64,000 bases of DNA, from assembly GCF_018128945.1 (NCBI RefSeq), contig NZ_CP068393.1, forward strand, positions 1,550,001 through 1,614,000, read 5' to 3'. Shown piece after piece: positions 15,146 to 16,559 of this stretch. The stretch comes from Aristaeella hokkaidonensis (GTDB lineage: Bacteria > Bacillota > Clostridia > Christensenellales > Aristaeellaceae). The notes under the pieces are model-generated. The model saw only the letters and a program-made list of their open reading frames with translations. It had not been told where the DNA came from and did no database searches. The translations under genes were made by a program, and so were the position numbers. Every line of letters begins with the position of its first letter. Within the stretch, counting starts at the first letter, position 1.

Positions 15146-15373
15146 CACAAGACAAGGGGACGATTATTTTGTCTTGTTGGTGCCTGGCGGGATTCGAATT
15201 CCGTTCGCTCAATGGTCGCCCGAAACCCTTGGAGCGGGTTCCGTTCTCCCTTTTGCGCTAACAAACTCGCCTCACTTCCGGCTTCGCCGGACAGCACACA
15301 GTGCTGACATTCGGCTCCTTTGCCACTCCCTACGGTCGTGTGGTTCGGATCCCTGCCGGGCTCAAACCAACAG
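15146..15373. repeat. structured repeat element, copy A
   Basis: This non-coding block ends at the left in a minus-strand tRNA 3'-end-like stretch (15178-15205) and at the right in GGTTCGGATCCCTGCCGGG, which is roughly the inverse of the left end. Two abutting hairpins lie inside: TCCGGC-TTC-GCCGGA (15277-15291) and CAGCAC-ACA-GTGCTG (15292-15306). Copy B (16223-16446) has the same order of parts. No protein is encoded. Together with the LacI promoter at 14959-14994 it fills the gene-free stretch from 14954 to 15406. Confidence 0.7.
15178..15205 (-). pseudogene. tRNA 3'-end remnant
   Basis: On the minus strand TTCGAATCCCGCCAGGCACCA resembles a T-loop, acceptor strand and CCA end, but no 5' half, anticodon arm or T-stem pairing is present. 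It is part of repeat copy A. Confidence 0.5.
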
Positions 15374-15401
15374 AAAAAGCTCTCCACAAGGGAGAGCTTT
15401 T
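15373..15401 (-). terminator. terminator of the phosphatase gene
   Basis: AGCTCTCC (15378-15385) pairs with GGAGAGCT (15391-15398) and is flanked by A and T runs, giving TTTTTC after the stem on the minus strand. Confidence 0.85.
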
Positions 15402-15406
15402 CTGCT

Positions 15407-16132
15407 TTATTCGTTTCTGTATTCTGTGTAAAACGGATGCGTATCATCCAGCCGCAACAGCATGGGGCTTCCTCCGTCTGCCGCTCCGGTATCAATATCC
15501 ACCCAGGTTTTCGTCACAAGCATCTGACCGTCTGCACCCACACCATACTCATGCGTCGGCGTATGACCGATAATGACCAGCTTGTTATCCCAGTATCTGT
15601 CTTCCAGGACCGGACGCGTCCACATCAGTTCAAACGCATCGTATTCATCCATTCTTTTCTCCGGTGCGAAATCCTTCAGTCCCCCGTGCACCAGCACAAA
15701 GCGCTTCATTGGCACAGCTGTTTCTACGTAAACCGATGCTGACCGGATATAGTCCAGCAGCCTGTTCAGCTCTTCCGGATCTTTTTCCTTCAGTTTCATC
15801 ATGTTTTCTATGGTGATAGAACTGCCGTTCCGGTTCCAGTGTTTCAAAGCGCGTTCCTGCTCCGACGTCAGTGATTCTTCCTCTGCCTGGCTCTCATCCC
15901 TGGTAAACAGGAAATCGCATTTCAGCAGCATATCCTCGTGGTTTCCCTTGATGAATGTCACGTTTTCCTGCCGCATCATCCAGCGCAGCATGGCGATTCC
16001 ACCATCGCCAAAGCGGTCAATCACATCCCCGATTACATACAGATGATCTGATGACGAGAAGCCCGCCTTCTCAAGCATTTTAAGGAATTTGTCCAGAGGA
16101 AATCCATGTAAGTCCGAAGTCGCAAAAAGCAT
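15407..16132 (-). CDS. calcineurin-like metallophosphoesterase (PPP-type phosphatase)
   Basis: The protein contains the full set of PPP metal-binding motifs: SDLHG at the N terminus, GDVIDRFGDG, FIKGNHE, VLVHGG and IIGHTPT. These bind two metals and hydrolyse phosphoprotein or nucleotide phosphoesters; bacterial relatives include PrpE-like and diadenosine tetraphosphatase-like enzymes. I start at 16132 (MLFATSDLHG), which puts the first motif near the N terminus as in the family; ATGs at 16177 and 16219 are possible but would add an unusual 15-29 residue tail. No clear ribosome binding site distinguishes them. The product is about 241 residues and cytoplasmic. It is a single gene lying between the two repeat elements. 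Confidence 0.88.
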   Translation of the reverse strand: MLFATSDLHGFPLDKFLKMLEKAGFSSSDHLYVIGDVIDRFGDGGIAMLRWMMRQENVTFIKGNHEDMLLKCDFLFTRDESQAEEESLTSEQERALKHWNRNGSSITIENMMKLKEKDPEELNRLLDYIRSASVYVETAVPMKRFVLVHGGLKDFAPEKRMDEYDAFELMWTRPVLEDRYWDNKLVIIGHTPTHEYGVGADGQMLVTKTWVDIDTGAADGGSPMLLRLDDTHPFYTEYRNE

Positions 16133-16222
16133 TGTGTGTTCCAGTCTTTCCAATCGTTCTGGTATCGCCGCGTTCATAACGCGTTTATGAATACTATCAC
16201 ACATACGCGCACAAAACAAGCC

Positions 16223-16446
16223 AACAGGACAAGGGGAAGCGGCTTGAGGCGGGTGGGAGCCCGGCGGGATTCCTCCGCAAGCTCAATCGGCGCAGCGGTT
16301 CTTGCTTCCGCTGCAAACCGCTGCTTGTTTCGCTTGACTCACTCACCTCGTTTTCGCCTTCGGCGAATGCCCCACTGGGGCACCACTCGGATCATTCCCC
16401 CACTCCCTACGGTCGTGCGTTCGGATCCCTGCCGGACTAAAACCAA
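16223..16446. repeat. structured repeat element, copy B
   Basis: It has the same architecture as copy A. The left end has a minus-strand tRNA-like GAATCCCGCCGGGCT; two abutting hairpins follow, TTCGCC-TTC-GGCGAA (16353-16367) and TGCCCC-ACT-GGGGCA (16368-16382); then CACTCCCTACGGTCGTG and GTTCGGATCCCTGCCGG, shared word for word with copy A. The stem sequences differ from copy A but all pair perfectly. It ends just past the tRNA-Arg terminator. Confidence 0.7.
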
Positions 16447-16480
16447 AGAAAAATACCACCCATGAAGGGTGGTATTTTTC
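16447..16480 (-). terminator. terminator of tRNA-Arg
   Basis: AAATACCACCC pairs with GGGTGGTATTT around ATGA; TTTTTC follows on the minus strand. Confidence 0.88.
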
Positions 16481-16482
16481 TT

Positions 16483-16559
16483 TGGTGAGCCCGGCGGGAT
16501 TCGAACCCACGACCTTTTGATTCGTAGTCAAACACTCTATCCAGCTGAGCTACGAGCCC
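16483..16559 (-). tRNA. tRNA-Arg (anticodon ACG)
   Basis: The minus strand folds as a complete tRNA: acceptor GGGCTCG with CGGGCTC, D-arm AGCTCAGCTGGATAGAGT, anticodon stem TTTGA/TCAAA with loop CTACGAA (anticodon ACG), T-arm GTGGGTTCGAATCCCGC, and an encoded CCA. The ACG anticodon, read as ICG after deamination, decodes CGU/CGC/CGA. It is a single tRNA gene with its own promoter and terminator. Confidence 0.97.

Follow-up and report, generated by a model that had tools for sequence, protein, structure and literature searches.

The two similar units at positions 15146-16446 of the window, the 64,000-nucleotide stretch of DNA that was analysed, belong to a family of hairpin-forming DNA repeats of about 125 bases that is present in tens of copies per genome in one group of gut bacteria. 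We regard this family as a variant of palindromic mobile DNA. Each unit, about 120-130 bp in size (longer where it carries an internal module), is likely to be a non-autonomous mobile palindrome that is moved in trans as folded single-stranded DNA. That the units are mobile had been suggested by a sequence-only reading of the window, and this is supported by dispersed copies, by empty sites in related genomes and by copies nested in one another.

Copies A and B and the extent of the family

The sequence-only reading described a dual-hairpin element in two copies, A and B, and the sequences it named are all present in place. CCACTCCCTACGGTCGTG is an exact direct repeat of 18 nt whose copies lie 1,077 bp apart, and a 35-nt stretch from GTTCGGATCCCTGCCGG is 86% repeated at a distance of 1,076 bp. 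Folding as RNA and as DNA confirmed that both hairpin pairs abut, with 6-bp arms and 3-base loops, and that the arms differ between A and B yet pair perfectly in each. Both copies were also correctly placed beyond terminators: a terminator-like palindrome follows a minus-strand phosphoesterase-like gene (named by eye from its protein) and then comes A, and a palindrome follows the tRNA-Arg at 16483-16559 and then comes B. The repeated unit itself had been drawn too wide. A core at 15200-15324 and 16274-16400 is common to the rest of the genome, but the tRNA-like ends lie outside it; likewise, the left end of A does contain a tRNA 3'-end fragment (15177-15199), but the sequence beyond this fragment (15148-15176) is a REP-type palindrome. 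The features of the two sites are as follows.

15148-15176, no strand: REP-type palindrome CAAGACAAGGGG...TTGTCTTG left of A, from the family of repeats around the Y1 transposase gene at G000:C1:2443636
15177-15199, minus strand: tRNA 3'-end fragment (T loop and acceptor strand) in the left flank of A, found as a direct repeat
15200-15324, minus strand: element core of copy A, subtype GTTTGTTAGCGC...GAGCGAACGGA, covariance model match of 102.9 bits (G000:C1:1565200-1565324)
15277-15291, minus strand: hairpin H2 of A, TCCGGC GAA GCCGGA, from folding and covariation
15292-15306, minus strand: hairpin H1 of A, CAGCAC TGT GTGCTG, from folding and covariation
15332-15369, plus strand: antisense copy of the tRNA-Arg 3' half in the right flank of A, outside the core, by eye against the tRNA-Arg at 16483-16559
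15370-15404, no strand: terminator-like palindrome 3' of the phosphoesterase-like gene, from sequence and folding
16255-16273, minus strand: sense tRNA-Arg 3'-end fragment in the left flank of B, found as a repeat
16274-16400, minus strand: element core of copy B, covariance model match of 126.4 bits (G000:C1:1566274-1566400)
16353-16367, minus strand: hairpin H2 of B, TTCGCC GAA GGCGAA, from folding
16368-16382, minus strand: hairpin H1 of B, TGCCCC AGT GGGGCA, from folding
16409-16445, plus strand: antisense copy of the tRNA-Arg 3' half in the right flank of B, found as a repeat; present in G023 without the element
16442-16486, no strand: terminator-like palindrome with perfect 20-bp arms after tRNA-Arg, from inverted-repeat analysis
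16483-16559, minus strand: tRNA-Arg(acg) gene, from which both tRNA-like flanks of B and the right flank of A probably derive

Read on the minus strand, both copies run from the start through GAGCCGAATG or GATCCGAGTG, H1, H2, a linker, a long-range stem, a third hairpin (H3) and ATTGAG to an end in CGGA, and the linker between H2 and the long-range stem contains GAGTTTG or GAGTGAG. The core of copy A is also present in two relatives (G001 and G023).

The recurrence of the unit exceeds what chance would give: searches by blastn with A and B found further copies, and a covariance model, built from a 15-copy alignment with a hand-made structure, matched 68 times in the 3.39-Mb genome of the window (G000) at E ≤ 0.1. 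Of these matches, 67 have E ≤ 0.0012 and 30 score at least 63 bits; the weakest (18.8 bits, E = 0.095) may be due to chance. The loci of the 30 strongest lie mostly (26/30) outside any stop-free frame of at least 150 codons. At E ≤ 0.001, the model has 72 matches in G002, 59 in G023 and 49 in G205. At E ≤ 0.01, 23 of 41 relatives match: 23 of the 25 of the same genus (own genome included), with no covariance model match in the same-genus genomes G006 and G011, and none of the 16 from other families of the order. The copy number is also near zero in G019; two of these three low-copy genomes (G006, G011 and G019) are incomplete. An order-wide sample of 200 genomes, each at least 80% complete, yielded six matching genomes at E ≤ 1e-6, all in the same family as the window: four of the same genus, one of another genus (G169, with at least 17 matches) and G144, with two weak matches. 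Within this order-wide sample, the element is restricted to one bacterial family. A 20-base end pattern found 114 stretches in named public genomes, in a search that may leave out records near the own genome; among the matches listed (80 of the 114), all come from genomes named Clostridia or Clostridiales bacterium, or Candidatus Limiplasma pullicola, and many of those listed bear ruminant sample names. One exact-pattern stretch was found in viral contigs. Spread by phage or plasmid was considered and set aside: with a single copy (L039) as query, neither the 50,697 phage records nor the 72,556 plasmid records gave a match. A literature search, judged from its listings, found no publication about these repeats.

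Several loci depart from the basic form. Six (L067, L068, L127, L128, L129 and L136) form a subtype that is longer because it contains an internal module, rich in G+C and about 50-60 bp in length. At L041/L059 and at L046, one element and a one-sided flank are repeated in tandem, upstream of a signal-peptide protein gene and at an apparent gene 3' end, respectively. At L055, L056 and L058, elements lie inside another dispersed repeat, GTCATTTCGACCAAGG-hairpin-GGAGAAATCTCC, as read by eye.

A second class of elements has its 3' half in common with the first (CAACC..GAAAC..GAC..ATTGAGGTTGCGG), with a longer outer stem and a single hairpin in the 5' half. It covaries as well: in an alignment of 14 copies, 96.6% of 350 cells are paired and 17/25 pairs have changed on both sides, and of 500 shuffles 72 reach the observed number of pair types and none reach the other four measures. 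These 14 copies were picked by eye as complete from the 23 matches listed, and those at L128 and L141 were excised from a first-class host. Three second-class copies, read by eye, lie inside first-class copies.

G000:C1:293,510-293,740: second-class copy inside a first-class copy (L141)
G000:C1:390,223-390,450: second-class copy inside a first-class copy (L130)
G000:C1:3,174,250-3,174,501: second-class copy inside a first-class copy (L128)

At L129 (G000:C1:3082700-3082942), a first-class element is interrupted by a third palindromic repeat, GGAAAACTGTCCAGTGGACAGTTTTCAGTGGAGAACGGGCGGCAGCCC.

Covariation and the level at which the arms pair

The change of arms under intact pairing that was noticed in A and B extends to the family, which shows an excess of compensatory changes. 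In the 15-copy alignment, 90.8% of 360 cells are standard pairs and 19/24 pairs have changed on both sides; none of 500 shuffles reach the observed values in four of five measures, and 42 do so for the number of pair types. The 106 distinct rows of a larger, 114-match alignment are 92.4% paired. Having been fitted to the structure, this alignment is biased in its favour, but pairing in slid controls drops to 36-42%. Here, 21/24 pairs have changed on both sides (9/500 shuffles as high), with 609 double-changed cells (0/500) and 58 further pair types (2/500). Compensatory change is present in all six helices, and the single pair 79-120 and the long-range stem CAACC/GGTTG covary as well. In the first helix, 20 of 105 rows lack the outermost pair. 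In the 15-copy alignment, the unpaired linkers are among the conserved parts while the arms vary.

Low folding z-scores on either strand suggest that both strands fold. As DNA, the core of A scores -2.13 on the element strand and -1.43 on the opposite one, and the core of B -3.50 and -4.13, so that for A single-sequence folding is only moderate evidence. Three cores tried in DNA folding gave a similar fold on both strands.

In an RNA whose pairing is under selection, G·U would be tolerated on the RNA's own strand, and its complement A·C would not. We counted pair types in the best 104 of the 114 alignment rows, which represent 96 distinct copies with 30 distinct H1 and 45 distinct H2 sequences. 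The 1056 pairs of H1 and H2 comprise 1040 Watson-Crick pairs, 5 G·T, 5 A·C and 6 others. As a control, the 757 pairs of 36 distinct tRNA genes from own-genome loci include 47 G·T, a 14-fold increase in odds over H1 and H2; ARAGORN, which was used here, reported no A·C, so only the G·T rate of this control is informative. The first helix has seven G·T and two A·C, and H3, which is poorly aligned (73.6% paired), has 16 and 8. All helices together give 13 G·T and 10 A·C without H3 and 29 and 18 with it, counted over cells that are not independent, as the copies are related. A clear balance between G·T and A·C is therefore confined to H1, H2 and the long-range stem. As both types are equally rare in H1 and H2, against the G·T rate of the tRNAs, the pairing looks DNA-level: judged from sequence, the covariation of the arms appears to point to folding as DNA and not as RNA. 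The loop of H2 is G-N-A in 29 of its 45 distinct sequences (five with even-length loops are unclassed), and C-GNA-G triloops form unusually stable DNA hairpins.

Insertion sites and the tRNA neighbourhood

Apart from B, three sites lack the element in a related genome whose flanking sequences align across the junction. On the element strand, L051 reads TTACAGGGGGACAGACC without interruption in G001, and TTACAGG + GGGGAGTG...TTGCGGA + TACAGACC in the own genome, where it is filled. L064 is empty in G001, which reads CCAGGGGACGGCTTC without the element, and L053 is empty in G023 and G008 (matches of 80% and 74%); the more divergent L053 region of G001 also has no element. Ten sites were queried in this way, of which L039, L058, L060 and L066 were left out on account of repeats or rearrangements among their flank matches. 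Both G001 and G023 have an element at L054, G001 also has one at L055, and at L047 the flank matches in G001 lie close together. Occupied and empty sites in relatives thus indicate that some copies are shared and older, and that others are absent from close relatives. At the two best-aligned sites, L051 and L064, there is a G-run at the 5' junction, the other junction leaves at most two unexplained bases, and no target duplication is evident. A table of left flanks holds 85 of the best 106 of 114 rows (103 placed copies), chosen for a GGGG[AG][AGC] start, and so cannot show that the G-run is universal. The elements at L051 and L064 are inserted inside REP-type palindromes. Those at L050 and L057 lie in fragments that resemble 5S rRNA on inspection by eye, close to an rRNA operon with its genuine 5S gene.

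A number of orthologous copies are more alike than the sequences that flank them: L187 and L169, for instance, have two differences between flanks that are 79% and 87% identical. Such a pattern could reflect a host function, in a comparison that is biased to conserved copies, as orthologs were fetched by model score and decayed copies were missed. Site A was located through its gene, and here five differences between the G000 and G001 copies were counted by eye.

Copy B is absent from the orthologous site in G023, but it is not a clean insertion on its own, because the terminator and the tRNA fragment, too, are not the same in the empty site as in the filled one. On the minus strand, the filled site consists of tRNA-Arg, the terminator-like palindrome, the antisense tRNA-Arg 3' half, GTAGGGAGTG, the element and the sense tRNA-Arg 3' end. 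In G023, it consists of tRNA-Arg, a terminator, the antisense 3' half and a REP-type palindrome, without the element and the sense fragment. This terminator in G023 has the sequence found at site A, so that sites A and B seem to have exchanged sequence; no tRNA gene lies beside site A. Similar sense-terminator-antisense layouts were seen by eye at tRNA-Val (L060), tRNA-Asn (L048) and tRNA-Ser (L066). At L042/L049 (G000:C1:165848-166350), the 3' end of tRNA-Arg(cct), a terminator and an element are duplicated in tandem.

The tRNA-like ends noticed in A and B are real sequence copies, in B of the 3' end of the adjacent tRNA-Arg in sense and antisense, but they do not belong to the element. They seem to have arisen as fold-back copies of a tRNA 3' end, which then received element insertions. 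Apart from the real tRNA-Arg, nothing in the window matches a tRNA, and no Rfam tRNA match falls within the cores of A and B. Of 49 element clusters, ten lie within 300 bp of a tRNA gene (also ten within 500 bp), about 25 times the expectation; 5000 whole-genome draws, from random positions that were intergenic and genic alike, gave a mean of 0.40 and a maximum of four. The elements have mixed orientations to these tRNA genes. The other 39 clusters are not within 500 bp of any tRNA gene, and an origin of the element from tRNA was rejected since most clusters lie away from tRNA genes.

If single-stranded transposition targeted one template, such as that of the lagging strand, insertions would be expected to show an orientation bias. 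The orientation of clusters on the replichores is 31:15 in the own genome (p = 0.026) and 29:16, 20:18 and 12:10 in three others, for which the 150 matches listed, of 180, were used. Pooled over the four genomes it is 92:59 (p = 0.009), a weak and uneven signal from genomes that share some insertions. Relative to the local skew there is no bias (50/103).

Candidate enzymes, known systems and rival readings

Matches to Y1_Tnp are found in 25/41 same-genus genomes. The own genome has two Y1 genes, about 15 kb and 62 kb from the nearest element match, which score like the long (RAYT-like) matches and unlike the short, IS200-like ones of G016, G011, G013 and others. A palindrome other than the element flanks one of them and is of the type that adjoins copy A on its left: the REP-type palindrome CAAGACAAGGGGACGGTTCTTTTGTCTTG lies on both sides of a RAYT-like Y1 transposase gene (L383:154-188, 213-242, 1082-1117). 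Close relatives of this palindrome adjoin copies A and B. No Y1 match was found in six element-bearing genomes (G005, G007, G012, G014, G017 and G020), five of which are 60-87% complete and one of which, G012, is 93% complete. No GTAG or GTGG guide was seen by eye at the foot of H1 or H2 in 15 copies. RAYT as the mobiliser is not supported, as no element of the own genome lies near a Y1 gene.

Other hairpin-bearing systems offer comparisons. IS200/IS605 elements are not known to make a target duplication, and palindrome-associated transposable elements (PATE) are grouped with their ends as a hairpin-bearing likeness. Integron attC sites are folded single strands with variable stems that are recognised by structure, and double-hairpin elements have reportedly been found in Allomyces mitochondria. 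Unlike attC sites, our element was noticed in no gene-cassette array, and the attC core was not seen by eye. In the available text of PMC6006769, IS200/IS605 ends are single-stranded hairpins beside a conserved short target sequence; ours are like them in their hairpins and perhaps in a short adjacent target, for which the G-run at the 5' junction is a candidate, and unlike them in that the two own Y1 matches are RAYT-like (long) rather than IS200-like (short). The same text defines REPs by a GTAG or GTGG within 0-2 nt of the hairpin foot (PMC6006769), a guide that is not seen at the foot of our element. The element is also unlike REP/REPIN sequences in not lying near a RAYT gene in the own genome and in being a double hairpin with mostly 3-base loops, a long-range stem and a junction G-run. 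It is like them in being a short extragenic palindromic repeat with tens to hundreds of copies, ssDNA hairpins and compensatory changes, which the available text of PMC3116915 reports for the REPIN hairpin. Repetitive hairpin elements of sponge mitochondria, with double-hairpin elements mentioned among them, are located near tRNA genes and inside rRNA genes and are potentially mobile in the account that the available text of PMC2800124 gives. Dispersed copies near tRNA genes and in rRNA genes are the likeness to our element; unlike it, those elements are mitochondrial, and their description in that portion of the paper has no linker and long-range stem (PMC2800124). By analogy, the family may work like REP/REPIN or mitochondrial double-hairpin elements, but it departs from REPs in both features that were compared, the guide and a flanking RAYT gene.

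Movement as folded single-stranded DNA is probable by analogy with IS200/IS605 and REP elements, and this model also draws on the G·T/A·C result and the conserved unpaired linkers. The element would be recognised and moved as a folded single DNA strand by an enzyme supplied in trans. Selection would bear mainly on the geometry of the hairpins and on the unpaired linkers, and less on the sequence of the arms, so that arms would stay paired while turning over and G·T would have no advantage over A·C. Strand switching at a terminator palindrome may have copied the tRNA 3' end back, giving the order sense, terminator, antisense and sense. Elements would then have inserted at G-runs in such fold-back copies, making the tRNA-like ends of A and B by-products. 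More tentatively, the element might be defined by DNA shape, with conserved unpaired linkers and replaceable arms, and an enzyme of this bacterial family might read geometry and join beside G-runs; we regard this as possible but doubtful.

Strand switching of this kind could also account for the arms themselves, if hairpin-templated repair or replication strand switching kept them paired in the absence of structural selection and ordinary recombination spread the copies. That G·T is as rare as A·C in H1 and H2 agrees with this, and the fold-back copies of tRNA 3' ends, in the order sense, antisense and sense, are a hint that palindromes do give rise to strand switching in this genome. Covariation of the separated long-range stem and of pair 79-120, as well as conservation of the unpaired linkers, is not expected from local correction, and we hold this reading unlikely. 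Mobilisation as REP/REPIN elements by resident RAYT transposases overlaps with the explanation that we prefer and names the enzyme. It is in keeping with short, mostly extragenic, palindromic repeats in many copies, with compensatory changes as in REPINs (in the available text of PMC3116915), and with the Y1_Tnp matches in the genus. As the Y1 genes of the own genome have no element nearby, no guide was seen by eye at the hairpin foot and the six element-bearing genomes noted above have no Y1 match, we judge it improbable.

The two proposals of the sequence-only reading for the nature of the units, a structured RNA and a tRNA-derived mobile element, fare no better. A structured regulatory RNA (riboswitch or leader) that was spread by recombination and works in transcripts would explain conserved unpaired linkers with variable arms, as in RNA motifs, the often greater similarity of orthologous copies than of their flanks (in the biased sample), and the location of some copies in gene leaders, such as L047 upstream of a signal-peptide protein start (by eye). 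G·T also exceeds A·C in H3, at 16 to 8, but the two are equal in H1 and H2, so that the well-aligned helices show no G·U preference. In the three cores that were folded, one strand folds much as the other does; the elements face either way relative to tRNA genes close by, and copies are nested in one another and within tRNA and 5S-like fragments. Rfam gave no family at threshold over the elements of A and B; its seven matches at E ≤ 5 around them are all below the gathering score. We give this reading little credence. Still less probable, to the point of being very improbable, is an element derived from tRNA with the tRNA ends as its termini. In its favour are the tRNA 3'-end sequences on one or both sides of A, B and the copies near tRNA-Val, -Asn, -Ser and -Arg(cct), and the enrichment of clusters near tRNA genes. 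It is contradicted by copies without tRNA sequence, among clusters that are mostly distant from tRNA genes. The tRNA pieces match the nearby tRNA where compared by eye, with end points that differ, and G023 keeps the antisense tRNA copy without the element.

Covarying stems together with tRNA-like ends hence do not make a tRNA-derived RNA, which is a caution for similar cases. Where G·T and A·C are equally rare, this may serve as a simple criterion for telling structure at the DNA level from structure at the RNA level. The family seems to be the bacterial equivalent of double-hairpin elements. Some of its copies are shared and others lineage-specific, and some sites are empty; such copies and sites make it a testable question whether the fold of the DNA or its sequence is recognised.
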